DNA of 64,000 nucleotides from a virus, in IMG/VR virus record IMGVR_UViG_3300045747_000054, positions 114,733 to 178,732 of that record; one strand, 5' to 3'. The notes beneath the pieces were generated by a model that was given only the letters and a program-made list of their open reading frames with translations, had not been told where the DNA came from and did not search any database. Shown here piece after piece: positions 8,072 through 37,780 of the stretch. How positions within the stretch are numbered: the stretch's first letter is position 1; each line of letters starts with the position of its first letter. Position numbers and translations under genes: made by a program.

Positions 8072-8081
8072 AAAATGGGTT

Positions 8082-10254: not shown

Positions 10255-10262
10255 GATGATCC

Positions 10263-11264: not shown

Positions 11265-11288
11265 TAGTAGTTACCTTGATACATGTCT

Positions 11289-11296
11289 TATTTATC
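11289..11296 (-). promoter_or_regulatory. Probable late promoter (GATAAATA) for gene 15
   Basis: The minus strand reads TTGATAAATAAGAC, a 7/8 match to TATAAATA, 25 nt before the gp15 ATG. It overlaps the last codons of the preceding gene. Spacing equals that of the exact promoters at 288 and 32,912. Confidence 0.55.
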
Positions 11297-12793: not shown

Positions 12794-12805
12794 AAACTCC
12801 GAATC

Positions 12806-16058: not shown

Positions 16059-18215
16059 TTAAGCAAATTTTTCAACACGCAATGATGCGAGATTGTATGA
16101 TTGTGAAACTCCGCCTCTGTTCTTGATTCCAATGAAGACATTATTGCTCGTAACATCATCATTTTCATAATAGAAAATATAACTCATTGTATAGTTATTC
16201 GAAGAAATGTCTGTTGCTGCAAGCATCAAAGATCCATTGTCATTAGATGATCCACGAACAACAATATCAAATAGACCAGTTACATTGGCAGTCACATAGA
16301 AGTAACTTACGATGCCTCTTTGAGCAACGTTGGCTACTGTATAGTATGTATATGAGGTATTGTAGTTCTGAGATCCAAGAGATAGGTTCAGAACTGTGAC
16401 TTTAGATGTTCCTCCACCACCACCAGTACCAGATCCAGTAGCTCCTTGTATACCTAAAGTTCCTTGAGTACCTTGCGCGGATCCTGCTGGACCTTGTACA
16501 CCTTGTGTTCCTGCGGTTCCTGCACCTTGTGTTCCCTGTAAACCAAATGGACCTTGTGTGCCCTGAACACCTTGAGTTCCTTGTGCAGTTCCTGCCTGTC
16601 CCTGAACACCCTGCGTACCTGCGGTTCCAGCACCTTGAGTTCCTTGTAAACCCAGAGATCCTTGAACACCCTGAGTTCCAGTTCCTGTTGTACCCTGCGT
16701 TCCTTGCGTTCCAACAGATCCAGCACCTTGAGTTCCTTGAGATCCGGTTCCAATAAGTCCCTGAGATCCTTGGATACCGAATGTTCCCTGAGATCCTTGT
16801 GAACCAGTGGATCCGGTACCTTGTGTTCCTTGAACACCCTGAGTACCTAAACCTTGAGTTCCTTGTGATCCCTGAGTTCCCTTTTCACCTTGAACACCCT
16901 GTGATCCTTGAATACCAAGAGTTCCCTGTGATCCTTGCGATCCTGTCGAACCCTGTGTTCCTTGAGATGTCCCACCGATACCTTGAACACCTAGAGTTCC
17001 TTGAACACCTTGTGTACCAGATCCAGTTGTTCCTTGAGTACCTTGAGAAGTTCCAGAAAGACCTTGTACTCCAAGAGTTCCTTGTATACCCTGAACACCC
17101 GGACTTCCAACACCCTGTGTTCCTTGAATACCCTGAGATCCTGTAGAACCAGCACCTTGAGTTCCTTGCGTTCCCTGAGAAGTTCCACCGATTCCCTGAA
17201 CACCTAATGTTCCTTGAACACCTTGTGAACCAATACCGAGCGGACCTTGTGTTCCCTGTGTTCCCTGTGCAGATCCTGCTTGACCTTGAATTGAAACTCC
17301 CTGAGTTCCTTGTGTTCCTTGTAGACCAAATGCACCTTGTGTTCCTTGTGCAGTTCCTGCCTGACCTTGAATAGCAACACCTTGGGTACCCTGAGATCCA
17401 ATATAACCCTGTGTTCCGAGAACACCTTGAACTCCCTGAGATCCTGTGCGACCTTGGGCACCTTGAGTGCCGAAAGATCCTTGAATACCAGTAGTACCTT
17501 GAATACCCTGTGTTCCAAATGTACCCTGTGTTCCTTGAACACCACCGAAACCTTGCGTACCAGTGAATCCTTGAATACCCTGATCACCCATTGGACCACG
17601 ATCACCGATACCGATGATCCCAGTGAATGCATAGAAATTTCTGGATTCGATCAATTCACCAACGACACAATTTGTAGTGAATGTCAGTACGTTTCCGTTG
17701 ACTGTATAATGATCAGATGGAACTTGAAGAATACCATTTCTGGTCACGAATGAAAGGTTATCACCGGCAACATTTGCAGAAAGATAGAATGTGTTTTGAC
17801 CGGCAGTAGATGTGAATGTATCACTACCAATTGCGACTCTTCCGTTACCACTGACGGAATCAATCCAGACATTGACTCTGCCGTTGGCATAGTCATCTGT
17901 GATAGACATTATGATATTGTTGCCACTACTAAAATCAATCGTACTCGTACTGTTTACGAATACATTGTTATTCTGAATTACAACCGCACCACCAATACCA
18001 GACCAGTTTCCATCTTTGAAACCTTCGAACTGGTGTATTTCATCATTATAGCGAATATACCCATTGGCACCTTCGGGTCTTTCGGCAATCGTGCCGACTG
18101 GAAGTGCAAAAGCATCTGTAGCTGCCGATGCGTCGATGACAACATTGGCAACATTAGCACCGCCGAGTGCCATACCCTTATCGGTAAAACTTACTCCACT
18201 GGTGTTAGCTGCCAT
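16059..18215 (-). CDS. Collagen-like tail fibre protein (718 residues)
   Basis: Residues 1-200 hold typical fibre N-terminal domains: ALPVGTIAERPEGANGYIRY followed by EIHQFEGFKDGNW, then DTFTSTAGQNTFYLSANVAG. Residues about 206-592 are Gly-X-Y repeats (GTQGVQGTLGVQG style), Gln being the usual Y residue and Pro rare. The last 115 residues form a globular head (SKVTVLNLSLGSQN...NLASLRVEKFA). Collagen-like triple helices are known in phage fibres and imply a trimer. GG.GGG linkers precede the head. It is the first gene of the 14-15 cassette, three bases from gene 14. It is probably an auxiliary or long fibre shaft with a distal head. Confidence 0.85.
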   Translation of the reverse strand: MAANTSGVSFTDKGMALGGANVANVVIDASAATDAFALPVGTIAERPEGANGYIRYNDEIHQFEGFKDGNWSGIGGAVVIQNNNVFVNSTSTIDFSSGNNIIMSITDDYANGRVNVWIDSVSGNGRVAIGSDTFTSTAGQNTFYLSANVAGDNLSFVTRNGILQVPSDHYTVNGNVLTFTTNCVVGELIESRNFYAFTGIIGIGDRGPMGDQGIQGFTGTQGFGGVQGTQGTFGTQGIQGTTGIQGSFGTQGAQGRTGSQGVQGVLGTQGYIGSQGTQGVAIQGQAGTAQGTQGAFGLQGTQGTQGVSIQGQAGSAQGTQGTQGPLGIGSQGVQGTLGVQGIGGTSQGTQGTQGAGSTGSQGIQGTQGVGSPGVQGIQGTLGVQGLSGTSQGTQGTTGSGTQGVQGTLGVQGIGGTSQGTQGSTGSQGSQGTLGIQGSQGVQGEKGTQGSQGTQGLGTQGVQGTQGTGSTGSQGSQGTFGIQGSQGLIGTGSQGTQGAGSVGTQGTQGTTGTGTQGVQGSLGLQGTQGAGTAGTQGVQGQAGTAQGTQGVQGTQGPFGLQGTQGAGTAGTQGVQGPAGSAQGTQGTLGIQGATGSGTGGGGGTSKVTVLNLSLGSQNYNTSYTYYTVANVAQRGIVSYFYVTANVTGLFDIVVRGSSNDNGSLMLAATDISSNNYTMSYIFYYENDDVTSNNVFIGIKNRGGVSQSYNLASLRVEKFA

Positions 18216-19626: not shown

Positions 19627-19630
19627 AATC

Positions 19631-20420: not shown

Positions 20421-20430
20421 TATTTATTTA
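20421..20430 (-). promoter_or_regulatory. Probable late promoter (TAAATAAATA) for genes 13, HNH and 14
   Basis: The minus strand reads ATTAAATAAATACTT, a near match to TATAAATA, 32 nt before the gp13 ATG and overlapping the stop region of the sulfotransferase-like gene. Its place at a module boundary supports promoter function. Confidence 0.5.
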
Positions 20431-21761: not shown

Positions 21762-22307
21762 CTAAAGAACTAGTCCAACAGTCACATTTTGAGTGGTAGC
21801 AGCGCCAAGATTATCCACAAACCACGGTGCTGGTCTACCTGTAGCTGTTCCTATATTCCACATATATCTTATAGTTGTTCCAGAGATTATGATGTTATTA
21901 CAGTCTGCGGTATCATATTCTATGTATGTACCTATAGAACTACTATTAGTATTTGCCATTGTAATTAGTCTTTGAATCATTCCATTTGATGGTGCTAAAG
22001 TACTACCAGCAGCGTTATATAGAAATAATGTCAAATAAGTTCTTGTAGTTAATCCTCCGGGTCCACCATCCATGTAAGTATACACCATCGCATCGGCACT
22101 AGAAAGAGCCACATTACCATTGACAGTATTTGCTGCCATACTCGATGGTCTTATCTGAACATTACCACTAACAACTCCAATAGTAGTGTTAGCTCTAAAA
22201 TATGTTTCTGTCGTCGTTTTGGTTTTTGTTATTGGCGTGTCCGAGGAAGTCACATTTCCTTTATAGAATAAAATAGTGGATTGTGGAAAACAATTGACAA
22301 TATACAT
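21762..22307 (-). CDS. Unknown fibre-associated protein
   Basis: The product has 181 residues and begins MYIVNCFPQSTILFYKGNVT. It is beta-rich, with NVTSSD, GNVQIRPSSM and NGNVALSSADAMVYTY strands, many Thr and Asn, and a C-terminal IRYMWNIGTATG segment. Its ATG overlaps the stop of the giant collagen-like gene, which strongly suggests that the two are made together. No family is recognised. A distal tip protein, a fibre-folding partner or a connector are all possible. Confidence 0.65.
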   Translation of the reverse strand: MYIVNCFPQSTILFYKGNVTSSDTPITKTKTTTETYFRANTTIGVVSGNVQIRPSSMAANTVNGNVALSSADAMVYTYMDGGPGGLTTRTYLTLFLYNAAGSTLAPSNGMIQRLITMANTNSSSIGTYIEYDTADCNNIIISGTTIRYMWNIGTATGRPAPWFVDNLGAATTQNVTVGLVL

Positions 22308-25300
22308 TATGAAATACCTATACCGCTAATATACCACTCGTCTGCCGCAACTTTCATGATTGTCGCAATGCTATTCGCAGCCAAGTTTCTAGTTGGTGAT
22401 GCTGCGTTAGTTACTGACAACGAAGTTCCAAAGAATCTTATGGTTGTTGCAGAGAATGCTGTATTTATTTGCAAGTTTCCAGCACCACTTCCATTTACAA
22501 TGGTAAGAATGGTTCCAATTGTAAATGCGGTGTTGGCATTAGTATTAACTCTATAGTTGTGTGCTGTAGCACTGGTGTGATATACAACGTTTGCAGCATC
22601 TGGAAGTTTAAAGTCATAGTTTGCATTCTGAATATTTTGAGTTAGGTTCGTTGGACCCTGTGGACCAAGATTTCCTTGTGTACCTTGTGTACCAGCACCA
22701 GTTGCACCCTGTGTACCCTGAGTTCCTGTACCAGTGTTTCCTACAGTACCTTGTGTACCCTGAGTTCCTGTTCCAGCAGTTCCCTGAGTTCCTGTGCCAG
22801 TTGCTCCGAGTGTTCCTTGAGTACCTTGTGTTCCTGTTCCAGTTAGACCTTGAGTACCATTAGTTCCAGATGAACCTTGAGTTCCTTGTGTTCCTGCACC
22901 AGTTAGACCCTGAGTTCCTTGTGATCCAGTTGCACCTAGAGTTCCTTGTACACCTTGAGATCCAGTGGTTCCAAGTGTTCCTTGCGATCCTTGAGTTCCC
23001 TTTTCACCTTGTACACCTTGAGAACCTTGAGATCCAGTGGCACCTAGAGTTCCTTGGGTTCCTTGTGATCCAGTTGCTCCGAGTGTTCCTTGAGTGCCTT
23101 GTGATCCAGTGGCACCTAGAGTTCCTTGGGTTCCTTGTGATCCAGTTGCTCCGAGTGTTCCTTGAGTGCCTTGTGATCCAGTGGCACCTAGAGTTCCTTG
23201 AGTTCCTTGAGTTCCCTTTTCACCTTGTACACCCTGTGTTCCTTGAGATCCAGTGGCACCTAGAGTTCCTTGAGTGCCTTGTGATCCAGTGGCACCTAGA
23301 GTTCCTTGTACACCTTGAGAACCAAGTGTACCCTGAGTTCCCTTTTCACCCTGAACACCCTGTGTTCCTTGAGATCCAGTGGCACCTAGAGTTCCTTGAG
23401 TGCCTTGTGATCCAGTGGCACCTAGAGTTCCTTGTACACCCTGTGAACCAGTTGTTCCTAATGTGCCCTGTGTGCCTTGAGATCCTGTAGCACCTAGAGT
23501 TCCTTGGGTTCCTTGTGATCCAACTGCGCCCTGAGTTCCCTTTTCACCTTGAACACCCTGTGTACCTTGAGTTCCGGTAGTTCCAATTGTTCCCTGAACA
23601 CCTTGTGACCCTAAATCTCCTGCGCGAGCAAAGAACACAACCAGTGCTTCACTGGCAGTAAATGTTGTTCCAGAAATAAAGGTAACGGTTAGATCGTAAT
23701 ATCCTGCTGCCAATGTAGCAATACTTACAAAGAATTTGAGTGCAGATCCATCAGAAGGAATATTACTTTCGAAAGTAATGATACCCCTGTTAGTTGGATT
23801 TGTACTGTCGTCTAGTGCAGCTAACCACGCAGACCAGTCAGTGCTGAAAACGTCTGTATTAGTTACGTAGATGTGTGTTGCGCTCGCAATACTTCCCATA
23901 ACCTGATTGAATCTTACACCACCAGCACTTGTTGTTCCTGCCGCAGTTGAAGATGCATCATAGAAATATCTTAGACCACCTTTATCTCCAGATGCGCCTT
24001 GTGATCCCTGAGAACCAGTCGTACCCTGTGTACCTTGTGATCCAGTTGTACCCTGAGTGCCGACAGCACCTTGAGTTCCCTTTTCACCTTGAACACCTTG
24101 TGATCCTTGAGTGCCGACAGCACCTTGAGTTCCTAGAGTTCCCTGTACTCCTTGTGTTCCAACAGCACCCTGAGTTCCCTTTTCACCTTGAACACCTTGG
24201 GTGCCTTGAGAACCAGTCGCACCTAATGTTCCTTGAACACCTTGTGATCCTGTGGCACCAAGAGTTCCTTGAGTGCCTTGTGATCCTGTAGCACCAAGTG
24301 TTCCTTGAGTTCCTTGTGATCCAGTTGCTCCCAATGTACCCTGAACACCTTGTGATCCTTGAGTTCCCTTTTCACCTTGAACACCTTGTGTTCCTTGTGT
24401 ACCTAGAGTTCCCTGAACACCTTGTGAACCTTGGCTACCTGTTGCTCCAAGAGTTCCTTGTGATCCCTGTGTTCCTGTTAAACCTTGTGTCCCGATTGTT
24501 CCTTGTGTTCCCTGAGAACCAGTTGCACCGAATGTTCCTTGTGTGCCCTGTGTTCCAACAGCACCTTGAGTACCTTGTAATCCTGTTGCGCCTTGAGTTC
24601 CAACAGTTCCTTGAGTACCCTGTGTTCCCTTTTCACCTTGGACACCCTGTGTACCTTGTGAACCAGTCGCACCAAGTGTTCCTTGTGTTCCTTGACTTCC
24701 TGTAGCTCCTAGAGTTCCTTGTGTTCCTTGACTTCCAGTTGCTCCAAGTGTACCCTGAACACCTTGTGATCCAACAGTACCCTGAGTTCCGAATGTTCCT
24801 TGTGATCCCTGAGTTCCAATAGAACCTTGAACACCTTGTGATCCTGTTGCTCCAAGTGTACCCTGAACACCTTGTAATCCTGTAGCACCAAGAGTTCCTT
24901 GTGTTCCTTGTGAACCAACATTTCCTGTTGGTACAATTGTCCACGCAGTAAACGTACCAGATCCACCAATATAATCCGTAGTCCAACCTAATGTTGTTGT
25001 GGCATAACTAGTAATCAAACCTTCCATAAAGTTTGTTGGAGTTGCAGTGTTGTAAACACGAATGCGTTCTCCAACCTGAAATGCATTTGTTCCAGCCGCT
25101 TGAGAAACTGTAAGAGTGGATGCTCCAAGTGCTATTGTATCAGATGTTGTTGATGTTAGACCAAAGTATCCAGCACCAAGAGTTCCTTGTAGACCTTGTA
25201 CACCTAAAGTTCCCTGAGTTCCCTGTGAACCTACAGTACCTTGAACTCCTAGAGTACCTTGAGTTCCCTGTGATCCTGTAGCACCTAATGTGCCTTGAGT

Positions 25301-28300
25301 TCCCTGTAAACCAACAGCACCTTGAGTTCCTAGTGTTCCTTGTGATCCTTGAGTTCCCACAGCACCTTGAACGCCTAATGCACCCTGTGTTCCTTGAGAA
25401 CCAGTTAGACCCTGTGTTCCAACAGCACCTTGAGTTCCAAGTGTTCCTTGTAGACCTTGAGTTCCCTTTTCACCCTGAACACCTTGAATACCTTGAACTC
25501 CAAGAGTTCCTTGAACACCTTGTGATCCTACGAATCCTTGTGTACCGAATGTTCCTTGAGTACCCTGAATACCCAATGTTCCTTGTGAACCCTGTGATCC
25601 AACTGTACCTTGAGTTCCAAGAGTTCCTTGAATACCTTGAGAACCAAGAGTACCCTGAGATCCTTGAGAACCAACAAAACCTTGAGTTCCTAGTGTGCCC
25701 TGTAGACCCTGTGTTCCAATTGTACCTTGTGTGCCCTGAGAACCAGTTATGCCCTGTGATCCAACAGTTCCTTGAGTTCCCTGAGAACCTGTTGATCCAA
25801 GTGTTCCTTGAGTGCCCTGAGAACCAACAGTTCCCTGAGATCCTTGAGAACCAACAGAACCTTGAGTTCCTAGTGTGCCCTGTAGACCCTGAGTTCCCTT
25901 TTCACCTTGAACACCCTGAGAACCTTGAGTTCCAGTTAGACCCTGTACGCCTAATGTACCTTGTGAACCAGTAGTTCCCTGTGTACCCTGAGTTCCTAGT
26001 GTTCCTTGAACGCCTAATGCACCCTGTGTTCCTTGAGAACCAGTTAGACCCTGTGTTCCAACAGCACCTTGAGTTCCAAGTGTTCCTTGTAGACCTTGTG
26101 ATCCAACTGCACCCTGAGTGCCTTGTGATCCAACGGTGCCTTGTGTACCAAATGTTCCTTGTAGCCCCTGTACACCTAGAGTTCCTTGTGAACCTTGCGT
26201 ACCAACCAGACCTTGACTTCCAAGAGTTCCTTGAATACCTTGAGAACCAAGAGTACCCTGAGTGCCTTGTGTACCAACAGCACCCTGAGTTCCAATAGTT
26301 CCTTGAGATCCTTGTGTTCCCTTTTCACCCTGAACACCTTGAGATCCTTGTGTGCCGACAGCACCTTGAATTCCTTGAGTTCCTTGAGAACCAGTTGATC
26401 CAAGTGTACCTTGAACACCCTGTGAACCAGTTGTTCCTAATGTGCCCTGTGTGCCTTGAGATCCTGTAGCACCTAGAGTTCCTTGTGTACCCTGTGTTCC
26501 CTTTTCACCTTGAACACCCTGTGATCCTTGTGATCCGGTGGTTCCAAGTGTACCTTGCATTCCTTGAATACCAATAGTTCCTTGTGTACCCTGTAAACCA
26601 GTTGTTCCCTGTGTTCCTATGATAGCAGAAGTATTGACACTGAATGAAACATTTGTTTGACGAGTTCCATTTGCAGTAGCCGAAACGTTTATTGTAGAGG
26701 TATTGTTAAAGTTGAGGTTGGCATTCGCAAGTATTAAATTTCCACTGGCATAAACAGCAACAGTATTTGCTGCATTGTTTGCTTGGTCTACAAGATCCCA
26801 CTGCGAACCAAATGGTCCAACGGTTAATGATTTGAAAAACTGTACGTTGCCTCGTAACTGAATATTTGGACCAGAAGAATGTCCAATCCAGATGCCATTA
26901 AGAGATCCATTCGGATCAGTTAATACGGACAAGAAATCTTGGGTAACTCCAGATTCAGAATACACACTTCCAAAGAAATTATTTCCACTAGCCCAATACT
27001 TGAATGCTGTATTCCATACACTAGTCTGAGAATCACTATAATATATTGTACCTGGGTTAGTTGTAAATGAAGTGGCATACGATACATCTGGAATAATACT
27101 TCCAACGACATGTATGCCATAAGTGTTAGAATTATAAGTTGCAAATGTATTTGTTGCAACATTAAATGTTAAATTTATAGAACCGGCAGGTGAACCTTGA
27201 TTGTTGAATATGATCTGAGTATTTGCGCCACCAACAGGACCGACAAGACCTTGTGTACCTTGTAAACCAAAAGTTCCCTGTGATCCTTGAGTTCCTACGG
27301 TACCTTGTGTACCAAGAGTTCCTTGTGAACCTTGAGTTCCTTTTTCACCTTGTACACCTTGTGTACCCTGAGATCCAGTTGTTCCAAGTGTTCCTTGTGT
27401 ACCCTGAGAACCAGTTGTACCAAGAGTTCCTTGTGAACCTTGAGTCCCTTTTTCACCTTGGACGCCTTGTGTACCTTGTGATCCTGTGGCACCAAGAGTT
27501 CCCTGAACACCTTGTGATCCTTGAGAACCAGTAGCTCCTAGAGTACCTTGTGTACCCTGTGATCCAGTGACTCCAATTGTTCCTTGTGTACCTTGTGATC
27601 CTGTAGTTCCCAAAGTTCCTTGGGTACCTTGACTTCCAGTTGCTCCAAGTGTACCTTGAGATCCCTGAGTTCCCTTTTCACCTTGGACACCTTGTGATCC
27701 CTGTGTTCCAACAGAACCTTGTGATCCTAGAGTACCTTGTGTTCCTTGTGAACCTGTTACACCAATTGTTCCTTGAGTGCCCTGAGTTCCTTTTTCACCT
27801 TGAACACCTTGCGAACCTTGAGTACCAACAGTTCCTTGCGTACCTTGTGATCCAGTTGCTCCGGTTGTACCTTGAGGACCAGTGACGTTACCAGCATCTG
27901 CAAATCCACCAACAGGTCCAGTTCCCGTATATGTCCACAAGTGACCAGTATCTGTTGCAATGAATCCATCACCTAAAACTGGAGAAGGATCGGCAGCAGC
28001 GAAGTTAGGAGCATTAGCAGTTGGAACGGAACCTTTAATATTAATAGATGTTCCATCATTACCTTTAACACCTTGGACACCCTGCATACCTTGTACACCA
28101 AGAGTACCTTGTGTACCTTGAATAGATGTGCCTTGTGTTCCCTGAGTTCCTTTTTCACCTTGAACACCTTGCGAACCTTGAGTACCAGTGGTTCCTTGTG
28201 ATCCAATGGTTCCTTGTGTTCCTTGTGTTCCCTGAGATCCTGTAGCACCTAGAGTTCCTTGTACACCTTGTGTTCCCTGTGATCCAGTGGTTCCTTGAGA

Positions 28301-31300
28301 ACCTAGTGTTCCTTGTAATCCCTGTGATCCAATAGTTCCTTGAGTGCCCTGAGAACCAGTTGCACCAAGTGTTCCTTGCGATCCTTGAGTACCCTTTTCA
28401 CCTTGAACACCCTGAGAACCTTGAGTACCAAATGTACCCTGAGAACCTTGAGTTCCAGTTGATCCTAATGAACCTTGAACACCTTGAGATCCTTGTGAAC
28501 CTATCGTTCCTTGCGAACCTACAGTTCCTTGTAATCCCTGAGTACCAGTAGTTCCCTGTGATCCAATAGTTCCTTGTGTGCCTTGTGACCCCGTGGCACC
28601 TAATGTTCCTTGCGTACCCTGAGAACCAACAGTCCCCTGAGATCCTTGAGAACCAGTTACTCCGAGTGTACCTTGGACACCCTGTATTCCAGTTAGACCT
28701 TGTACACCAAGAGTTCCTTGTAATCCTTGAGTTCCAAGTGTTCCTTGTGTACCCTGTAATCCTACAGTACCTTGAGTTCCGAATGTACCTTGAGTTCCCT
28801 GTGATCCTAGAATACCTTGAGTTCCAAGTGTTCCTTGTAGACCCTGTGATCCTACAATTCCTTGTGATCCTAGTGTTCCTTGTGAGCCAACAATTCCTTG
28901 TGATCCTTGTGTTCCAGTTAGACCTTGCGAACCAAGTGTGCCTTGAGTGCCTTGTGTTCCAGTCGCACCGATTGTGCCCTGAGTTCCCTGTGATCCAGTG
29001 GTTCCTAGAGTTCCTTGAACTCCCTGCGATCCTTGTAATCCCTGTGTTCCAGTTAGACCTTGAGATCCAATTGTTCCTTGTAAACCTTGTGAACCAGTTG
29101 ATCCTTGAGTACCTTGTGAACCTTGAGATCCTGTTAAACCTTGAGATCCACTTGCACCTTGCAAACCCTGAGAACCTGTTGCTCCAAGTGTGCCCTGTGT
29201 TCCTTGTGAACCTAGAGTTCCTTGTAATCCCTGTGTTCCTTGCGATCCAGTTGCACCTAGAGTTCCTTGTGAACCTTGAGATCCTGTAGCGCCAAGTGTT
29301 CCTTGAGTGCCTTGTGAACCAGTTGCTCCTAGTGTTCCCTGTACACCTTGAGTTCCAATTGTCCCCTGTACACCTTGTGATCCCTGTGAACCAACAGAAC
29401 CTTGAGTGCCTTGTGTTCCAGTTAGACCTTGTGATCCAATTGTTCCTTGAGTGCCCTGAGAACCATTAGTTCCAATTGTACCTTGGGTACCCTGAGTTCC
29501 TTTTTCACCTTGAACACCTTGCGAACCTTGTGTGCCAACCCCACCCTGTGTTCCTTGAGATCCATTTGTTCCAGTCGTACCTTGAGGTCCGGTTACGTTT
29601 CCTGCGTCTGTGAATCCACCAACAGGACCACTTCCAGTATATGTCCACAAATGTCCTGTGTCTGTTGCAATATATCCATCACCAAGAGTTGGAGAAGGAT
29701 CGGCTGCTGCGAAGTTCGAAGCATTGGCAGTTGGAACAGAACCCTTAATGTTGATAGATGTTCCATCATTACCCTTGACACCCTGAACACCTTGCATTCC
29801 CTGCGAACCTGTTGTACCTTGTGCAGATCCAATGACACTGAACGCAATATTTGCATTTCCAGAAACACCAGAACTTACGACAACTGATACTGTAGCAGTG
29901 TTAACGAAATTTAGTGATTGGTTATTGAGAGTAGATCCACCATTCGAAGATACCGATACACTGTTCGCTGCTGTATTAATCGAGTTAGCAAGATCCATTC
30001 CAGAAACAGTCACGAACGTTTTTGCATTTACAACACCAGTAGTTGCAAGAAGATTTCCTGTCGAAGTATTACCAGTAACTGTAAGTGCAGTTCCAGTTCC
30101 AGATACAGTCTTTATCGTGACGCCAGTTGCAGAAACGTTCAGTACATAGTTTCCGTTTGCCATCAAGGCAACACCACTATTACCGCTTACCTGTAACTGT
30201 GTAAAGTTTCTTGAGTTTGCTCCGATATATCCCGCTGCAATATTCCAACCCGCTTGTGCGCCTTGTGCAGCAACATAGAAATTTAAGAATCTGGATATAC
30301 CAGTTCCGAGAGTATCATTCCAAATATTTACTGGTGCTGTATTGGCAGCAGAACCATCGAAATAGAATGTAGCAGAACCATTCTGCACTGTGATCATTTC
30401 ATACTTGTTGATCATCCACGGATATGTGGTGTTTAAATTATTTGGTGGACCAGCATAATTTGTTTCATATAATGTGAGTGCTGGACCAGTTACAGAAGGT
30501 TCTACTGTGAAAGATCCAGTCGCAGCAGAGAATGATCCTGGAAATATTACTGCGCCACCAAAAAGGGACATTCCAACCGTGCTATTCACACTGAAATTCA
30601 TGTATGATTGACCAGTAGCATTACCGATCCCACCCGGACCTCTTAGATTGAAATTTGCTATTCCAGTATCAGTAGTACTAGCAATATAATCATAACTAAT
30701 TTCTATATCATTTACGTTGGTTGGTGCATCATTTGGTGGAATAGTTAATCCAACTTTTAGAGCGCCATAAATTCCCAATGAATAATCGGTTGCCCCAGAA
30801 CTCTGGAAAAATGCTTTATCACCAAATGTCATGGTGTTTGATGCAATGTTATATGTTAGATATGGAGATCCATTGGCAATACCATTATTGTTAAACAATA
30901 TTTGAGTATTGGCACCACCAGTCGGACCAATTAAACCTTGAGTTCCCTGTGAACCAGATGTACCTTGGGTTCCTTTTTCACCCTGAATACCCTGCACACC
31001 TTGTGATCCTGTTGCACCTAATGTACCCTGCACACCTTGTGAACCAGTTGCTCCAAGTGTTCCTTGAACACCTTGTGATCCTTGAGTTCCCTTTTCACCT
31101 TGAACACCCTGAGTTCCTTGTGAACCAGTTGCACCTAATGTGCCCTGAGTTCCTTGTGTTCCGGCAGATCCAGCACCTTGTGTTCCCTGTAAACCTAGAG
31201 TTCCTTGAACACCTTGTGTACCAGCAGTTCCGGCACCCTGAGTTCCTTGAATACCGAATGTTCCCTGCGACCCTTGTGTGCCTACAGAACCTGCACCTTG

Positions 31301-32887
31301 TGTTCCTTGTACTCCCGTTCCAGTAAGACCCTGAACACCAAGAGTCCCTTGTGTGCCCTGAGTTCCAGTACCAGTTAGACCTTGTGTTCCTTGTGTACCA
31401 GTTCCAGTTAGACCTTGTGATCCTTGTGAACCATTAACACCAGAGGTTCCTTGTGTACCTTGAGTTCCAGATCCAGTTAGACCTTGTGTTCCCTGTGATC
31501 CAGTAGAACCTAGTGTTCCTTGTGTACCTTGAGAACCTGCACCTGTTGCACCTTGTGTACCTTGAGTACCGGCAGTACCCGCACCTTGTGTTCCTTGAAT
31601 ACCTTGTGTACCGGGAGTTCCAACACCTTGTGTTCCTTGAATACCTTGAACACCAAGAGTTCCTTGAACACCCTGTGCGCCAGTTCCAGTAAGACCTTGT
31701 GTTCCGAATGTTCCTTGCAGACCTTGTGATCCAATAGTACCCTGTGTTCCTTGTGTACCAGATCCAGTAAGACCTTGTGTTCCAAGTGTTCCTTGTAATC
31801 CTTGTGAACCAACGATACCTTGAGTGCCAAGTGTTCCTTGTAGACCTTGAGTTCCTTTTTCACCTTGGACACCTTGAGATCCTTGTGAACCAGTTGTTCC
31901 TTGAGATCCTACAGCACCTTGAGTTCCTTGTGAACCTTGTGAACCTGTTGTTCCAAGAGTTCCTTGAATACCTTGAGAACCAGTTGCACCTAATGTGCCC
32001 TGAGTTCCCTGTGTTCCTTTTTCACCCTGAACACCTTGTGATCCTTGAGTTCCGAATGTTCCTTGTGAACCAACAGTTCCCTGTGTTCCCTTTTCACCTT
32101 GGACACCTTGTGTTCCCTGAGTACCAATGGTTCCCTGTGATCCAACAGTTCCCTGAGTACCTTGTGATCCTGTGACACCTAATGAACCTTGAACACCCTG
32201 AGATCCCTGAGATCCTGTTGTTCCCTGAGTTCCTTGTGATCCTGTTGCACCTTGAGTGCCTTGTGTGCCGAACGAACCTTGTGTTCCAGTTGTACCCTGC
32301 GATCCTTGTGATCCAGTCGCACCTTGAGTGCCTTGTGTTCCCTGCGTGCCGAATGAACCTTGGGTACCAGTTAGACCTTGTGAACCTGTTGTTCCCTGAG
32401 TTCCTTGCAATCCAACAGAACCTTGTGTTCCAACTGAACCCTGTACACCAAATGTTCCTTGAGATCCTTGTGAACCAACAGTGCCTTGTGTACCTTGTGC
32501 GCCGACTGCACCTTGTGTACCAAATGCTCCTTGAGTTCCAGTGAAACCTTGAATTCCAATTGCACCTTGAACACCTTGTGATCCAGTCAGTCCAATGGAT
32601 CCTTGTGCGCCTTGTGGACCTGAGATGTTTCCACCATCAACCCAAAGAGATCCACTCCAAACCCAAAGATGTCCATTGTCAATTGCGATGTAAGAATCAC
32701 CAGCAGAACCAACATAAGAACTTGGATATCCAGGAAGTGAAGTAAATGTTGGAACACTTCCTTTGATTACGATACCAGATCCAGCAATACCTTGTGCACC
32801 AGTCGCTCCAATACCTTGAACACCCTGCACACCTTGTGCGCCGGGAGGTAATTGGCTGGCTAATACTTGCTCGATTGGAAATGTCAT
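22307..32887 (-). CDS. Giant multi-domain collagen-like fibre protein (3526 residues)
   Basis: One uninterrupted frame fills 10.6 kb. Six Gly-X-Y blocks (residues about 93-652, 1103-1600, 1673-1886, 2093-2575, 2656-2966, 3093-3413) total roughly 2,400 residues, mostly GTQ, GSQ, GTL and GAT triplets with periodic GEKGTQG. Between them lie globular domains: a KGSVPT...GHLW domain three times (about 41-93, 1030-1103, 1600-1673), domains at about 653-1023, 1886-2093, 2575-2656 and 2966-3093, and a C-terminal head ending ADEWYISGIGIS. Gly-X-Y proteins trimerise as triple helices. The size and late promoter point to a very long virion fibre. It sits where T4 has genes 9-12. Attachment site and receptor are unknown. 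Confidence 0.85.
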   Translation of the reverse strand: MTFPIEQVLASQLPPGAQGVQGVQGIGATGAQGIAGSGIVIKGSVPTFTSLPGYPSSYVGSAGDSYIAIDNGHLWVWSGSLWVDGGNISGPQGAQGSIGLTGSQGVQGAIGIQGFTGTQGAFGTQGAVGAQGTQGTVGSQGSQGTFGVQGSVGTQGSVGLQGTQGTTGSQGLTGTQGSFGTQGTQGTQGATGSQGSQGTTGTQGSFGTQGTQGATGSQGTQGTTGSQGSQGVQGSLGVTGSQGTQGTVGSQGTIGTQGTQGVQGEKGTQGTVGSQGTFGTQGSQGVQGEKGTQGTQGTLGATGSQGIQGTLGTTGSQGSQGTQGAVGSQGTTGSQGSQGVQGEKGTQGLQGTLGTQGIVGSQGLQGTLGTQGLTGSGTQGTQGTIGSQGLQGTFGTQGLTGTGAQGVQGTLGVQGIQGTQGVGTPGTQGIQGTQGAGTAGTQGTQGATGAGSQGTQGTLGSTGSQGTQGLTGSGTQGTQGTSGVNGSQGSQGLTGTGTQGTQGLTGTGTQGTQGTLGVQGLTGTGVQGTQGAGSVGTQGSQGTFGIQGTQGAGTAGTQGVQGTLGLQGTQGAGSAGTQGTQGTLGATGSQGTQGVQGEKGTQGSQGVQGTLGATGSQGVQGTLGATGSQGVQGIQGEKGTQGTSGSQGTQGLIGPTGGANTQILFNNNGIANGSPYLTYNIASNTMTFGDKAFFQSSGATDYSLGIYGALKVGLTIPPNDAPTNVNDIEISYDYIASTTDTGIANFNLRGPGGIGNATGQSYMNFSVNSTVGMSLFGGAVIFPGSFSAATGSFTVEPSVTGPALTLYETNYAGPPNNLNTTYPWMINKYEMITVQNGSATFYFDGSAANTAPVNIWNDTLGTGISRFLNFYVAAQGAQAGWNIAAGYIGANSRNFTQLQVSGNSGVALMANGNYVLNVSATGVTIKTVSGTGTALTVTGNTSTGNLLATTGVVNAKTFVTVSGMDLANSINTAANSVSVSSNGGSTLNNQSLNFVNTATVSVVVSSGVSGNANIAFSVIGSAQGTTGSQGMQGVQGVKGNDGTSINIKGSVPTANASNFAAADPSPTLGDGYIATDTGHLWTYTGSGPVGGFTDAGNVTGPQGTTGTNGSQGTQGGVGTQGSQGVQGEKGTQGTQGTIGTNGSQGTQGTIGSQGLTGTQGTQGSVGSQGSQGVQGTIGTQGVQGTLGATGSQGTQGTLGATGSQGSQGTLGATGSQGTQGLQGTLGSQGTQGTLGATGSQGLQGASGSQGLTGSQGSQGTQGSTGSQGLQGTIGSQGLTGTQGLQGSQGVQGTLGTTGSQGTQGTIGATGTQGTQGTLGSQGLTGTQGSQGIVGSQGTLGSQGIVGSQGLQGTLGTQGILGSQGTQGTFGTQGTVGLQGTQGTLGTQGLQGTLGVQGLTGIQGVQGTLGVTGSQGSQGTVGSQGTQGTLGATGSQGTQGTIGSQGTTGTQGLQGTVGSQGTIGSQGSQGVQGSLGSTGTQGSQGTFGTQGSQGVQGEKGTQGSQGTLGATGSQGTQGTIGSQGLQGTLGSQGTTGSQGTQGVQGTLGATGSQGTQGTQGTIGSQGTTGTQGSQGVQGEKGTQGTQGTSIQGTQGTLGVQGMQGVQGVKGNDGTSINIKGSVPTANAPNFAAADPSPVLGDGFIATDTGHLWTYTGTGPVGGFADAGNVTGPQGTTGATGSQGTQGTVGTQGSQGVQGEKGTQGTQGTIGVTGSQGTQGTLGSQGSVGTQGSQGVQGEKGTQGSQGTLGATGSQGTQGTLGTTGSQGTQGTIGVTGSQGTQGTLGATGSQGSQGVQGTLGATGSQGTQGVQGEKGTQGSQGTLGTTGSQGTQGTLGTTGSQGTQGVQGEKGTQGSQGTLGTQGTVGTQGSQGTFGLQGTQGLVGPVGGANTQIIFNNQGSPAGSINLTFNVATNTFATYNSNTYGIHVVGSIIPDVSYATSFTTNPGTIYYSDSQTSVWNTAFKYWASGNNFFGSVYSESGVTQDFLSVLTDPNGSLNGIWIGHSSGPNIQLRGNVQFFKSLTVGPFGSQWDLVDQANNAANTVAVYASGNLILANANLNFNNTSTINVSATANGTRQTNVSFSVNTSAIIGTQGTTGLQGTQGTIGIQGMQGTLGTTGSQGSQGVQGEKGTQGTQGTLGATGSQGTQGTLGTTGSQGVQGTLGSTGSQGTQGIQGAVGTQGSQGVQGEKGTQGSQGTIGTQGAVGTQGTQGTLGSQGIQGTLGSQGLVGTQGSQGTLGVQGLQGTFGTQGTVGSQGTQGAVGSQGLQGTLGTQGAVGTQGLTGSQGTQGALGVQGTLGTQGTQGTTGSQGTLGVQGLTGTQGSQGVQGEKGTQGLQGTLGTQGSVGSQGSQGTVGSQGTQGTLGSTGSQGTQGTVGSQGITGSQGTQGTIGTQGLQGTLGTQGFVGSQGSQGTLGSQGIQGTLGTQGTVGSQGSQGTLGIQGTQGTFGTQGFVGSQGVQGTLGVQGIQGVQGEKGTQGLQGTLGTQGAVGTQGLTGSQGTQGALGVQGAVGTQGSQGTLGTQGAVGLQGTQGTLGATGSQGTQGTLGVQGTVGSQGTQGTLGVQGLQGTLGAGYFGLTSTTSDTIALGASTLTVSQAAGTNAFQVGERIRVYNTATPTNFMEGLITSYATTTLGWTTDYIGGSGTFTAWTIVPTGNVGSQGTQGTLGATGLQGVQGTLGATGSQGVQGSIGTQGSQGTFGTQGTVGSQGVQGTLGATGSQGTQGTLGATGSQGTQGTLGATGSQGTQGVQGEKGTQGTQGTVGTQGATGLQGTQGAVGTQGTQGTFGATGSQGTQGTIGTQGLTGTQGSQGTLGATGSQGSQGVQGTLGTQGTQGVQGEKGTQGSQGVQGTLGATGSQGTQGTLGATGSQGTQGTLGATGSQGVQGTLGATGSQGTQGVQGEKGTQGAVGTQGVQGTLGTQGAVGTQGSQGVQGEKGTQGAVGTQGTTGSQGTQGTTGSQGSQGASGDKGGLRYFYDASSTAAGTTSAGGVRFNQVMGSIASATHIYVTNTDVFSTDWSAWLAALDDSTNPTNRGIITFESNIPSDGSALKFFVSIATLAAGYYDLTVTFISGTTFTASEALVVFFARAGDLGSQGVQGTIGTTGTQGTQGVQGEKGTQGAVGSQGTQGTLGATGSQGTQGTLGTTGSQGVQGTLGATGSQGTQGTLGATGSQGTQGVQGEKGTQGTLGSQGVQGTLGATGSQGTQGTLGATGSQGTQGVQGEKGTQGTQGTLGATGSQGTQGTLGATGSQGTQGTLGATGSQGTQGTLGATGSQGTQGTLGATGSQGSQGVQGEKGTQGSQGTLGTTGSQGVQGTLGATGSQGTQGLTGAGTQGTQGSSGTNGTQGLTGTGTQGTQGTLGATGTGTQGTAGTGTQGTQGTVGNTGTGTQGTQGATGAGTQGTQGNLGPQGPTNLTQNIQNANYDFKLPDAANVVYHTSATAHNYRVNTNANTAFTIGTILTIVNGSGAGNLQINTAFSATTIRFFGTSLSVTNAASPTRNLAANSIATIMKVAADEWYISGIGIS
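22650..32640. repeat. Collagen-coding repeat arrays with 9-bp periodicity
   Basis: The six Gly-X-Y coding blocks show strict 9-bp periodicity and many longer direct repeats, such as the 12-residue unit GTQGTLGATGSQ. Two 72-bp units at 23,041-23,112 and 23,113-23,184 are identical. A 95-bp segment at 25,365-25,459 recurs at 26,004-26,098, offset 639 bp (71 x 9). Such arrays expand and contract in frame and are hard to assemble from short reads. Confidence 0.9.
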
Positions 32888-32911: not shown

Positions 32912-32919
32912 TATTTATA
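32912..32919 (-). promoter_or_regulatory. T4-type late promoter (TATAAATA) for the giant fibre gene
   Basis: The minus strand reads ATCTATAAATAGAAAG. It is an exact octamer 25 nt before the 10.6-kb gene, overlapping the stop region of the upstream collagen-like gene. It gives the giant fibre and its downstream partners their own late transcription. Confidence 0.75.
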
Positions 32920-35900
32920 GATCAGTTTCAATATACAAACTGATGAAATCCAATCCTACAACCTGAGCAGCAGAGTTATTTGTTCTGAATTGTTGTACTG
33001 TTAACAATGTATTTCCGAATGGCATATTCACACCAGTATTTGACAACACCGTAGAATACGTATTCAATGTAGGATTAGTCATATCCATAATTTGAATTCC
33101 GATTGTATTTGAGTTTGGGGCAGCGAACATCGAAAAATCCCAAACGTTTACGTTTCCTACGTTGCAACGTAATCCAGTGTCTATGATAAGAGCACTAGTG
33201 TTTGTTGCATTTCCTATGATAGAAAGATTGTTAGAACTTGGTACCTGACCAATTCCAATAAAATTTTGAATTGTCAATGGATTGTTAGTGTTAGACAATG
33301 CAGTAGTAGTTGCAGAAAGTCCAATTAACATCGTTGCATTTGTGACTGGTGCTGGATCAGAAATTCCAAAACGTGAAACGAAAGTAAATCCGCCTTGACC
33401 AGTAGTGTTTCCTCTCAACCAACTTGCTGTAGCAACACGCAATGAACATGCACCACCAGCAACGGCAGTTGAAAGATATCCAATACGTCTTAGTGAATGA
33501 TATAAAGTGGTTGCCAATACGGTTCTTGCGGTTGCAGTTCCTGCCATTGTAGGAGGTAAAATACCAATAGTGTTTGCAGCACCAGTTCCGTTTCCAGTCC
33601 AGTGCATATATCCGACATGATTACGACCAAAAAATGGTTGTACTGGTGAATCTAATCCAGAAGGTCCAACCCAAGATGGTAACACTCTTCCTGCAATACT
33701 CCTTCCGAATAATGTTATAGTATTTGTTGCTGGAGTTGGTGGCTGCGTGTTTGCTGCATATAAGTTGATACCAGTATTAAGAGATGATCCAGTCTTTCCG
33801 ATTATTAGAATATTATTTCCAGTATCAAAAGTAAGATCAGGATCTCCAGCAAGAACTCCACCAAAATTAATTTGAATTTCGTTTGTATTACCGGACGCAT
33901 CCGTAAATTCTGGATTCATTAATCTCCAAGTACCACCAGAAACAGTGTTGTAAACTAGTTGCATTACATAACCAGTTGGTCCGGTATCACCAACAACTAG
34001 TGGAGTATTATCATCTCTCGTAATGGTTTTAGCACCGAGTCCATTTGGATTGAATGTTGGTGTAGTTGTAGTATTGTTTCCTGCCGAATCCAATAGTACG
34101 AACAGCCCATCATACAATGATGCCAGTGCTGGACTGTAAGTTGCAGTGATCGTATCTGTACCAGTTGCGTCTGCGTATGGAACAACGTTTCCACTAGGTC
34201 CGACACCTCCTACAGTTCCTTGAACACCCTGTGTTCCTGCACCGGCAACACCTTGAACACCCTGTGATCCTGTTCCAGTAAGACCTTGAGTTCCCTGTGT
34301 TCCTGCACCAGTTGCACCTTGAGTACCTTGTGTTCCGGTTCCAATTGTACCCTGAGTGCCTTGGGTACCTGCACCTGTAAGTCCTTGTGTTCCTATACGA
34401 CCCTGAACACCCTGTGTTCCTTGTGAACCAGTTCCAGTCAGACCTTGTGTTCCTTGTGTTCCTGCACCTGTTAGACCTTGAGTTCCTTGTGTTCCGGTTC
34501 CAGTTAGACCTTGAGTTCCTTGTGTTCCGGTTCCAGTCAGACCCTGAGTTCCTTGTGATCCTTGTGATCCAGTTCCAGACGCACCTTGAGTGCCTTGTGA
34601 TCCGGTGTCACCAGTTGTTCCTTGAACACCTTGAGTTCCTGCACCAGCAACACCCTGTGTTCCTTGTGAACCAGTTCCAGTCAGACCTTGTGTTCCTTGC
34701 ACTCCTGCACCAGTTGCACCTTGAACGCCTTGTGATCCGGTTCCAGTTAGACCTTGAGTTCCTTGTGTTCCAGTTCCAGTTGTACCCTGAGTTCCTTGCG
34801 AACCTGTTACACCAATTGTTCCTTGGGTACCTTGTGTTCCTGTTCCAGTCAGACCTTGAGTACCTTGTGATCCAGAGACACCGAGTGTTCCTTGAACACC
34901 TTGTGTTCCAGTTCCAGTCAATCCTTGAGTTCCCTGTGTACCAGTTCCTGTAAGACCTTGAGTGCCTTGTGTACCAGTTCCTGTAAGACCTTGAGTTCCC
35001 TGTGAACCAGTAGCACCCAATGTTCCCTGAGTACCTTGAGATCCAGTTGCACCTAGAGTTCCTTGAACACCTTGCGATCCAGTTGTTCCAAGTGTTCCTT
35101 GTAGACCTTGAGTTCCGGTTCCAGTAAGACCCTGAGTTCCTTGAGATCCTGTTGATCCAAGTGTACCCTGAGTTCCTTGCACTCCCGCACCAGTAAGTCC
35201 TTGGACACCTTGTGATCCCTGAATTCCAGTTAGACCTTGTGATCCAATAGCACCTTGTGTACCTTGAGTTCCTACAGAACCCGCACCCTGAGTTCCCTGT
35301 GTTCCTGCACCAGTTAAACCCTGAGTACCTTGCGAACCAATTGTTCCAAGAGTTCCCTGAACACCTTGTGATCCAGTTCCGGTAAGACCCTGAGTTCCTT
35401 GTAATCCAGTCGCACCTAGAGTTCCCTGTGTTCCTTGTGTTCCTTGTGTACCAGAACCAGTAAGACCTTGTGTTCCTTGTGTACCGGCAGTACCAGCACC
35501 TTGTGTTCCTTGAACACCTTGTGAGCCAGTTCCAATAAGTCCTTGTGTTCCTTGAGATCCAGAAGAACCTAATGTACCTTGAGTTCCCTGTGTTCCTGCA
35601 CCAGTTAGACCCTGAGTTCCCTGCGATCCTGTTGCTCCTAGAGTTCCCTGCGATCCTTGCGATCCAGAGGTACCTAATGTTCCTTGTGTGCCTTGAGAAC
35701 CAGTGGTTCCAAGTGTTCCTTGTGTGCCTTGAGTTCCCTTTTCACCTTGAACACCTTGTGTTCCCTGCGAACCAGTTCCAGTAAGTCCTTGAACACCTTG
35801 TGAACCAGTTCCTGTAAGTCCTTGAGTTCCCTGTGTTCCTGCACCAGTTGCACCTTGAGTGCCTTGTGTTCCGGTTGTTCCAAGAGTTCCTTGAGAACCC

Positions 35901-37537
35901 TGTGTTCCTTGTGAACCTGTTCCAGTGAGTCCCTGAACTCCAAGAGTTCCTTGAGATCCTTGTGTTCCCTTTTCACCCTGAACACCTTGCGTTCCTTGTG
36001 ATCCAGTTCCGGTAAGACCCTGAGTTCCTTGTAATCCAGTCGCACCTAGAGTCCCTTGTGTTCCTTGTACACCAGCACCAGTTGCACCTTGAGTGCCTTG
36101 TATTCCTGTTCCAGTAAATCCTTGAACACCGAGAGTTCCTTGAGTGCCTTGTGAACCACTTCCAGTTGCACCCTGAGTTCCTTGAGTACCAGCAGTTCCA
36201 GCACCCTGAGTTCCTTGAACACCTTGTGTTCCAGAACCAGTAAGACCTTGTGTTCCAAATGTACCTTGTAAACCTTGTGTACCAATAGTTCCCTGAGTAC
36301 CTTGTGTACCCGCACCTGTAAGACCTTGTGTTCCTTGTGTACCAATAGTTCCTAGAGTTCCTTGAGTACCTTGTACTCCAGCACCAGTTGCACCTTGAGT
36401 GCCTTGTCTGCCCTGAGTTCCTTGCATTCCCTGAACGCCTTGCGTTCCTTGAGTACCAGAACCAGTAAGACCCTGAACACCTTGTGATCCAATGGATCCT
36501 TGTGTGCCGAGAGTTCCTTGTGATCCTTGAGTACCAGAACCAGTAAGACCCTGAACACCTTGAGTGCCAATGGTTCCCTGAATACCGATAGTACCTTGAA
36601 CGCCTTGTACTCCTGCACCAGTTATACCTTGCGAACCTGTTACACCAAGAGTACCTTGTGTACCTTGTGCAGATCCTGCTCGACCTTGAACACCTTGTGT
36701 ACCTGCCGTCCCGGCACCCTGAGTTCCCTGTGATCCTTGAGTTCCTGGTGAACCAGCACCTTGAGTTCCCTGTGCGCCAGAACCAGTTGGTCCCTGAACA
36801 CCTTGAACACCAGTGGTTGCAGTTACTTCCCAAGTATTAACAGATGGATTACCGTTGAAAATAAGTTCGACAGTAATTCCGGTAATATCAATTCTCATGT
36901 CATCTGAAATGTGTTCTATTGTAGAACCATTTCTTGCAATGAACAAACTATTTGCACTCCACATATTACCATCGGTAATTTGGATATATGCACCACTAGT
37001 TGGATTTAATGGAAGTGTTACAGTGAATGAACCAGATGAAGTATCTGCAATGATTCTATCACCATCGACGGCAGTGTAATCAGCAGTCTTTAATGCCCAT
37101 GCTTGTAGCGCACCAGTAACACCCTGAGTACCAAATACACCTTGCGCTCCAGAAGTACCTTGAGTACCTTGCGCTCCTGTGGTTCCCTGAACTGCTCCGA
37201 TATAATCAAAGGATATATTTGCATTTCCAGAGAATGGTCCAGACCCTGGAACCACACTTACAACTATGGAAGATGTATTTCTAAAATTTAGATGTTGTGC
37301 ATATAGTGCATTCGCACCGTCTTGATATACAGAAACAGTGTTGGCTGCACTGTTGGCAGTGTCATAGGCATCACCGACAACCTCGACTGTCGATGCTACT
37401 TGAACTGGAACAGAATTTGAATCACCGATGTAAAGAGTGTTAGCCGCAAAAGAATATGCTAGTTCACCATATGCAAGAGAATTTGGTGCAGCATTAGCGG
37501 TAGATCTTTTTATCTGAATGATTGTGTTCTGAGTCAT
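32915..37537 (-). CDS. Collagen-like tail fibre protein (1540 residues)
   Basis: The N-terminus (IIQIKRSTANAAPNSLAYGE then LAYSFAANTLYIGDS) is a domain common to T4-like fibre proteins of aquatic phages and probably mediates virion attachment. A LNFRNTSSIVV...GNANISFDYIG beta-module follows (about 80-115), then a short collagen piece, a globular domain (about 143-245), a long Gly-X-Y region (about 245-1110) and a 430-residue C-terminal region starting SGNVVPYADATGTD. The collagen part is regularly broken by two-residue units (LTGTGTQG, TGAGTQG). It lies upstream of the giant fibre, with its own small partner genes upstream. Its role is probably a fibre segment or a separate fibre. Confidence 0.85.
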   Translation of the reverse strand: MTQNTIIQIKRSTANAAPNSLAYGELAYSFAANTLYIGDSNSVPVQVASTVEVVGDAYDTANSAANTVSVYQDGANALYAQHLNFRNTSSIVVSVVPGSGPFSGNANISFDYIGAVQGTTGAQGTQGTSGAQGVFGTQGVTGALQAWALKTADYTAVDGDRIIADTSSGSFTVTLPLNPTSGAYIQITDGNMWSANSLFIARNGSTIEHISDDMRIDITGITVELIFNGNPSVNTWEVTATTGVQGVQGPTGSGAQGTQGAGSPGTQGSQGTQGAGTAGTQGVQGRAGSAQGTQGTLGVTGSQGITGAGVQGVQGTIGIQGTIGTQGVQGLTGSGTQGSQGTLGTQGSIGSQGVQGLTGSGTQGTQGVQGMQGTQGRQGTQGATGAGVQGTQGTLGTIGTQGTQGLTGAGTQGTQGTIGTQGLQGTFGTQGLTGSGTQGVQGTQGAGTAGTQGTQGATGSGSQGTQGTLGVQGFTGTGIQGTQGATGAGVQGTQGTLGATGLQGTQGLTGTGSQGTQGVQGEKGTQGSQGTLGVQGLTGTGSQGTQGSQGTLGTTGTQGTQGATGAGTQGTQGLTGTGSQGVQGLTGTGSQGTQGVQGEKGTQGTQGTLGTTGSQGTQGTLGTSGSQGSQGTLGATGSQGTQGLTGAGTQGTQGTLGSSGSQGTQGLIGTGSQGVQGTQGAGTAGTQGTQGLTGSGTQGTQGTQGTLGATGLQGTQGLTGTGSQGVQGTLGTIGSQGTQGLTGAGTQGTQGAGSVGTQGTQGAIGSQGLTGIQGSQGVQGLTGAGVQGTQGTLGSTGSQGTQGLTGTGTQGLQGTLGTTGSQGVQGTLGATGSQGTQGTLGATGSQGTQGLTGTGTQGTQGLTGTGTQGTQGLTGTGTQGVQGTLGVSGSQGTQGLTGTGTQGTQGTIGVTGSQGTQGTTGTGTQGTQGLTGTGSQGVQGATGAGVQGTQGLTGTGSQGTQGVAGAGTQGVQGTTGDTGSQGTQGASGTGSQGSQGTQGLTGTGTQGTQGLTGTGTQGTQGLTGAGTQGTQGLTGTGSQGTQGVQGRIGTQGLTGAGTQGTQGTIGTGTQGTQGATGAGTQGTQGLTGTGSQGVQGVAGAGTQGVQGTVGGVGPSGNVVPYADATGTDTITATYSPALASLYDGLFVLLDSAGNNTTTTPTFNPNGLGAKTITRDDNTPLVVGDTGPTGYVMQLVYNTVSGGTWRLMNPEFTDASGNTNEIQINFGGVLAGDPDLTFDTGNNILIIGKTGSSLNTGINLYAANTQPPTPATNTITLFGRSIAGRVLPSWVGPSGLDSPVQPFFGRNHVGYMHWTGNGTGAANTIGILPPTMAGTATARTVLATTLYHSLRRIGYLSTAVAGGACSLRVATASWLRGNTTGQGGFTFVSRFGISDPAPVTNATMLIGLSATTTALSNTNNPLTIQNFIGIGQVPSSNNLSIIGNATNTSALIIDTGLRCNVGNVNVWDFSMFAAPNSNTIGIQIMDMTNPTLNTYSTVLSNTGVNMPFGNTLLTVQQFRTNNSAAQVVGLDFISLYIETDL

Positions 37538-37540
37538 GGT

Positions 37541-37780
37541 TTAGAATATTCCACCATCAATATCTGGAAGAGTCTCAATGATGTAAGAATTAGTATTTGC
37601 ATTAAATACTAGAACATCTCCGTTACGTTGACCAGATACATTCACATTATTAAGATCTCCTAAGCCAAGTGGTCCTGCCACTGGAGCCTTGGTAAAATTG
37701 ACTTTGGCGATTTTGTTATGCGTATCAACAACAACTTTCCCAAGACCAACTTTGGACTTGTTTGAAAGAACTACTTTCAT
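37541..37780 (-). CDS. Small fibre-associated protein
   Basis: The product has 79 residues. The C-terminal half, LGDLNNVNVSGQRNGDVLVF then NTNSYIIETLP, is a motif often found in phage fibre or fibre-linker proteins from memory. The N-terminal half is basic. It overlaps the upstream gene by four bases (ATGA) and is three bases from the 1540-residue fibre gene, so the three probably form one translational unit. It is likely a connector or trimer cap of the collagen fibre. Confidence 0.7.
   Translation of the reverse strand: MKVVLSNKSKVGLGKVVVDTHNKIAKVNFTKAPVAGPLGLGDLNNVNVSGQRNGDVLVFNANTNSYIIETLPDIDGGIF

Follow-up and report, generated by a model that had tools for sequence, protein, structure and literature searches.

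Whether an open frame of 10.6 kb built largely of Gly-X-Y triplets encodes one very long phage fibre, and whether collagen-type helices could form in it almost without proline, are the questions raised by this locus. The stretch of DNA analysed herein (64,000 nt, hereafter the window) corresponds to positions 114733-178732 of a linear virus record of 178.7 kb. A first-pass annotation had placed one 3526-codon open frame at 22307-32887, and exactly this frame was found, on the minus strand, with an ATG start and a TAA stop (P0001, 3526 aa). Reading of the same interval on the plus strand was rejected, as stops were present throughout. P0001 starts 27 nt after the end of a paralogous upstream gene for a collagen-like fibre (P0002, 1540 aa, 32915..37537, minus strand), and its stop overlaps the ATG of the next gene (TAATG), which encodes a 181-aa protein of unknown function (21762..22307, minus strand). 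Chance cannot account for a frame of 3526 codons in perfect glycine phase.

The Pfam search of P0001 returned Collagen (PF01391) as the sole family, with 974 bits (cut-off 27.2), an E value of 7e-302, and 23 matching stretches, and glycine occupied each third residue over runs of up to 163 triplets. When runs of at least four triplets were counted, 2406 residues were in Gly-X-Y register, in agreement with the roughly 2,400 proposed earlier, and the six triple-helix blocks of that proposal were recovered as six large blocks of Gly-X-Y sequence, 219-570 aa in length. All lie on the minus strand. Block 1 comprises residues 90-659 (570 aa, 30911..32620), block 2 residues 1100-1614 (515 aa, 28046..29590), and block 3 residues 1670-1888 (219 aa, 27224..27880), with longest uninterrupted runs of 96, 163, and 73 triplets, respectively. 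Blocks 4, 5, and 6 comprise residues 2091-2573 (483 aa, 25169..26617), 2655-2972 (318 aa, 23972..24925), and 3090-3413 (324 aa, 22649..23620), with longest uninterrupted runs of 161, 106, and 81 triplets, respectively.

As first described, proline was rare (0.3% of block residues) and Gln was dominant at Y (58%, followed by Thr at 12%), while X was mostly Thr (45%) and Ser (23%). Proline made up 0.6% of X and charged residues about 3%, and 95.4% of the triplets contained neither proline nor charge. In viral collagens, X is Pro in 22% and Asp/Glu in 35% of cases; for Gram-positive collagens the Pro share at X is 31% (PMC3368898). P0001 lies far below the norm of about 20-30% Pro at X in described bacterial and viral collagens, which is a compositional norm and not a membership criterion for PF01391. 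Compared with characterised collagens, its composition is extreme. Charged triplets recur almost entirely within one regular motif, GVQGEKGTQG; 24 GEK triplets lie within 22649-32620 (3 to 5 per block), and an exact codon-degenerate search revealed this motif in one other IMG/VR contig, L198.

The stability of such a helix without hydroxyproline had been put forward as an open question. In general it is not, since the bacterial Scl2 melts at about 36 C, largely owing to charged and polar residues (PMC8968730), and EPclA, a prophage collagen of E. coli O157, is a trimeric dumbbell with a triple-helix transition at 42 C (PMC3368898). The question stands in a narrower form, for a helix with neither proline nor charge. 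As 95% of the triplets lack both, the known stabilising contributions would be nearly absent, and a triple helix at ambient temperature is not assured.

The same near-absence of proline and charge favours a reading in which the fibre is real but its Gly-X-Y blocks form polyglycine-II bundles or disordered flexible linkers, with a shaft much shorter than 0.7 micrometre. We regard this as unlikely, though it deserves real weight. Polyglycine-II sandwiches of Gly-X-X repeats occur in the T-even phage adhesin S16 gp38, a precedent at a phage fibre, and adhesins of this type resemble P0001 in their repeats and in having little proline. P0002, with frequent Gly-X-Gly interruptions that are often 11 residues apart, points the same way. 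However, the sandwiches require turns every 10-15 residues, and S16 gp38-type adhesins consist of short strands with turns, whereas the runs in P0001 continue for 73-163 triplets; short Gly-rich strands with turns between them were not what P0001 contained, P0002 being less clear. Moreover, collagen is recognised by just such a strict glycine phase combined with variable X and Y, and other hydroxyproline-free bacterial and viral collagens accept Gln, Thr, and Ser at Y (PMC3368898, PMC8968730). A PDB match to 8zxl ('spindlefibril/axialfibril', 418 bits), which has GAPGSQGAPGLQ-type repeats, shows only that solved Gly-X-Y chains tolerate Gln at Y.

If the blocks are collagen-type helices, as we prefer, the earlier estimate of a fully extended shaft near 0.7 micrometre is arithmetically sound (2406 x 0.29 nm = 698 nm), and a rise of 0.29 nm per residue agrees with electron microscopy of the phage collagen EPclA (PMC3368898). 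The estimate presumes a continuous helix in every block and a straight fibre; the shaft would be shorter than about 0.7 micrometre if bent or partly unfolded.

The first-pass annotation counted seven or more domains interrupting the Gly-X-Y register, and we found seven non-collagen segments that precede or separate the blocks, in addition to a C-terminal head, all on the minus strand. Three of the segments are copies of a 55-62 aa module located before GPQG collagen starts. The N-terminal copy (residues 28-89, 32621..32806) is 45% identical to the other two, and the second (residues 1045-1099, 29591..29755) is 92% identical to the third (residues 1615-1669, 27881..28045); the module is also present in other viral fibre ORFs. 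The N-terminus of P0001 consists of about 15 residues ahead of the first collagen, without a family match, and the fibre ORFs of contigs L042 and L043 have similarly short N-termini. The insert at residues 660-1023 (29819..30910) had no close relatives in IMG/VR or annotated phages; its ends resemble phage-fibre motifs common to the insert at residues 1889-2090 (26618..27223) and P0002. Spacer domain F (residues 2574-2654, 24926..25168) has homologues in fibre ORFs of L042, L043, L148, L039, and L178.

Spacer domain G (residues 2973-3089, 23621..23971), a beta-domain of viral collagen-like proteins, belongs to a family of ~120 aa whose 196 copies are spread over 91 loci, frequently with several in one protein. 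It has no Pfam family, the copy in the window had no PHROG match, and tblastn found none in annotated phages. An AlphaFold2 model of the domain (pLDDT 88) had no Foldseek match in the PDB (best E 0.22). In BFVD, the model matched 40 predicted viral structures with E values up to 0.001. Most of these carry the name collagen triple helix repeat protein, and their sources are uncultured and Synechococcus phages as well as giant viruses of protists. Judging from these comparisons, domain G is an undescribed and widespread viral domain that punctuates collagen arrays.

The end of P0001 had been read as a fibre-type head, and this was borne out. The same tip as that of the head (residues 3414-3526, 22310..22648) was found at the ends of other phage fibres, including the C-terminus of a 270-aa protein from a different kind of phage. 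No relatives were found with the head as a single-sequence query, and three were found with a two-sequence alignment. The predicted model (pLDDT 78) folds like phage spike tips, with Foldseek matches to the Pa223 capsid spike (E 2.8e-4), a KP1-type baseplate chain (5.4e-4), and the Solidus tailspike (4.4e-3). The self-cleaving C-terminal S74 chaperone (PF13884) was absent from P0001 in the Pfam search; it is carried by the collagen ORF of the relative L026.

The window contains T4-type families for portal, sheath, tube, terminase, neck, baseplate wedge, hub lysozyme, major head protein, DNA polymerase, and helicase, and its terminase is ~50% identical to those of Synechococcus myophages. By its gene content, the source phage is T4-like and cyanophage-related. 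Along the minus strand, the baseplate genes and two large proteins of the baseplate region (phrog_358; DUF4815 in one of them) are followed by a fibre protein of 444 aa (38670..40004), which includes a short collagen-like stretch and is homologous to a 352-aa fibre of the syntenic relative L198. Then come a 164-aa protein, a 111-aa protein similar to T5 L-shaped tail-fibre assembly proteins (37777..38112; phrog_3304, E 1e-19) just upstream of P0002, and P0002 and P0001 themselves. Small proteins, neck gp13, an HNH-type gene, neck gp14, and a third collagen-like fibre (P0003, 718 aa, 16059..18215, minus strand) complete the order. In pelagi- and cyanomyophages, the interval from VrlC to gp14 is the host recognition cluster, in which triple collagen repeats occur among putative receptor-binding proteins (PMC7029224). 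The P0001 interval, from the baseplate/VrlC-type region to neck gp13/gp14, corresponds to this cluster. P0001 lies in a structural and host-recognition module of a tailed phage, which it shares with three smaller collagen-bearing proteins (P0002, P0003, and the 444-aa fibre).

P0003 has an orthologue in L009, a contig of nearly the same virus, with a DNA identity of about 92%, the adjoining 2.8 kb being 96% identical. The dN/dS between the orthologues was 0.057 in the N-terminus and 0.11 in the collagen part, and no indel was found across 197 collagen codons. P0002 contains an 876-residue array in which Gly-X-Gly interruptions are frequent and recur at spacings of 11, 14, 23, and 26 residues, whereas the blocks of P0001 are uninterrupted.

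Several other features of the window were recorded. HNH/homing-endonuclease-like genes are located at 19105-19686, between gp13 and gp14, and at 5783-6307, between tube and sheath. A second tail-tube-like protein (302 aa, phrog_45) is encoded at 59786-60694 on the plus strand, the opposite strand to the main tube gene (5208-5786). A 638-aa protein with Glu/Asp/Lys-rich repeats (61624-63540, plus strand) adjoins tube and hub genes and has no family match; it is a possible candidate for the tape-measure protein. An 81-bp tandem repeat (98% identical) was present at 12891-13090, within a small tail-fibre-like gene (12806-13225). The gene at 20424-21119, without a Pfam match, has an RSGSTW start resembling sulfotransferase-family proteins of the relatives L026 and L198.

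This setting bears on whether the protein is made for some other place than the virion tail, as a released or cell-surface adhesive fibre or as capsid decoration. We consider this improbable, because the gene lies within the late structural cluster beside baseplate and fibre-assembly-like genes, the annotated phage homologues are in the majority tail or fibre proteins, and no secretion signal was evident when the N-terminus was read by eye. What speaks for it is that the N-terminus has no recognised attachment domain, that among PDB structures the head is matched best by the capsid spike of Pa223, and that collagen-like proteins are also found outside tails, for example in giant viruses.

A tail fibre of this length presupposes that the array itself is real. 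The window is free of Ns, and its exact repeats reach 98 bp at most, indicating that the array could be resolved by 150-base reads or k-mers of at least 99. An independent, 96%-identical contig (L009) covers only the last 47 bases of P0001. In a frame-blind comparison of 72-base copies, in-frame repeat copies differed at codon positions 1, 2, and 3 in 1937, 1071, and 5075 cases, respectively, and no off-frame matches with at least 75% identity over 72 bases were found. The third-position bias of the in-frame divergence and the lack of off-frame matches indicate that selection on the protein maintains the repeats. An assembly or chimera artefact, with a wrong array length or several genes fused, is very improbable: although the region is repetitive, the metagenomic record linear, and contigs of relatives often stop within collagen arrays, the absence of Ns and of exact repeats beyond 98 bp, the single frame kept throughout, the third-position-biased divergence, the coherent domain order, and the comparable ORF of 3488 aa known from LR756501.1, an independent genome of 735 kb, all speak against it. 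If longer true repeats were collapsed, 3526 codons would be a lower bound, as collapse would make the true gene longer and not shorter.

P0001 is best read, with fair though not complete confidence, as a receptor-binding fibre (tail or side) of a T4-like phage, homotrimeric and very long. The frame, its domain layout, the constraint on the repeats, the position of the gene, and the homology of the head were seen directly, while we infer the trimer, the triple helix, the folding direction, the attachment to the virion, and the binding of receptors. The collagen-like fibre first proposed is supported in its six blocks, its domains, and its head, and its gene is located in the tail-fibre region of such a phage. 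The Pfam match and the perfect glycine phase, the protein-level constraint on the repeats of P0001 and on the collagen part of its paralogue P0003, the surrounding T4-type head, neck, sheath, baseplate, and hub genes with their host recognition cluster position, the collagen genes of S-CRM01, DSL-LC02, and L198 in comparable positions, and a head with a spike-like fold common to phage fibre tips all argue for this reading. The lack of a recognised virion-attachment domain at the N-terminus counts against it, as does the scarcity of triplets with proline or charge.

In this receptor-binding fibre, the C-terminal head would nucleate the three chains, after which the Gln/Thr/Ser-rich Gly-X-Y blocks would zip into collagen-type triple helices, and the interleaved beta-domains may clamp the helices in register and join them as hinges. 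The N-terminus would be anchored either to the baseplate or to the end of P0002, with the head and spacer modules contacting the host surface. C-terminal trimerisation, helical shafts, clamp or hinge domains, and tail attachment are proposed by analogy with EPclA, Sp5 ORF67, and 80alpha FibU. The fibre probably serves to reach and grip host cells. It would act as a flexible tether, perhaps several hundred nanometres in length, with which the virion could find cells where they are sparse or extend through layers at the surface.

A Gly-Thr-Gln DNA pattern was found in 112 stretches in IMG/VR compared with 5 in 84,980 prokaryote genomes, indicating that such arrays are mainly a viral trait. The longest complete ORF at these viral loci was 2004 aa, and many of the contigs end inside arrays. 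Proline made up 1.3% of X over 9867 triplets; as the loci were selected by the motif, their Thr and Gln composition is biased and the rest partly so. Relatives of P0001 at the same locus are shorter versions. In L198, a baseplate protein 46% identical to that of the window is followed by collagen fibres of 352 and 1231 aa. Sulfotransferase-family proteins are encoded close to collagen fibre genes in L026 (6551-7324, strong) and L198 (441-1115, weak). In L026, three RCC1-like repeat proteins (7331-12811; one by Pfam, two by eye) adjoin the collagen fibre in the host-recognition cluster.

The cited characterised collagens hold their three chains together by Pro/Hyp or dense charge. It is conceivable, and we propose it only tentatively, that aquatic phages share a class of fibres of Gly-Thr-Gln and Gly-Thr-Ser types, with shafts that lack both proline and charged residues and tethers several times the phage length. 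These might be stabilised in an uncharacterised way, by dense hydrogen-bond and hydration ladders of Gln, Thr, and Ser, by the sheer length over which the helix cooperates, by the few charged GVQGEKGTQG marks, and by clamp domains, G among them. If this is true, some T4-like phages would carry fibres several times their own tail length, and the modelling of adsorption range to sparse cells would change. Two points are of interest, namely the stabilisation of a proline-free and charge-free triple helix and domain G, which is viral, widespread, and without Pfam family or PDB match, and which deserves a name and a solved structure.

Among known systems, the E. coli O157 prophage collagens (EPclA and Sp5 ORF67) resemble P0001 in having a Gly-X-Y stalk with terminal domains. 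Their trimer and tail location have been demonstrated, with ORF67 of phage Sp5 localised to the tail ends by immuno-EM (PMC3368898, PMC5155283). EPclA also has only about 111 collagen residues, with 48% Pro at X and many charges (PMC3368898), unlike P0001. FibU, on the baseplate of Staphylococcus phage 80alpha, is likewise a thin, collagen-like fibre bearing a knob, but its about 30 collagen residues span about 9 nm and it is dispensable for infectivity (PMC7048315). S-CRM01, which infects Synechococcus, and the metagenome-assembled DSL-LC02 (PMC10611076) are T4-like aquatic phages (Kyanoviridae) with collagen-like fibre genes rich in Gln at Y. These genes follow the hub/baseplate genes in DSL-LC02, and the annotated collagen-repeat genes of S-CRM01 lie in the same baseplate-to-neck interval; however, the proteins have only 236-873 aa, one of 578 aa being encoded by S-CRM01, and Pro at X is higher in S-CRM01 (17-35%).

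Of the same scale is LR756501.1, an uncultured 735-kb huge phage. At about 394-431 kb it carries three neighbouring ORFs (814, 2830, and 3488 aa) that are collagen-like, unannotated, and built of Gly-Thr-Ser repeats. The largest is almost proline-free and has 2558 Gly-X-Y residues, a longest run of 308 triplets, 77% Thr at X, and 80% Ser at Y. Unlike P0001, it has Ser instead of Gln at Y, a different N-terminus and head, and no domain G match at E<0.01, and it belongs to a very different phage. The idea that P0001 is the largest phage collagen was therefore dropped, and the uniqueness implied by the first-pass annotation does not hold for size or for lack of proline. On present comparisons, P0001 is an extreme example of an already known kind of phage fibre.
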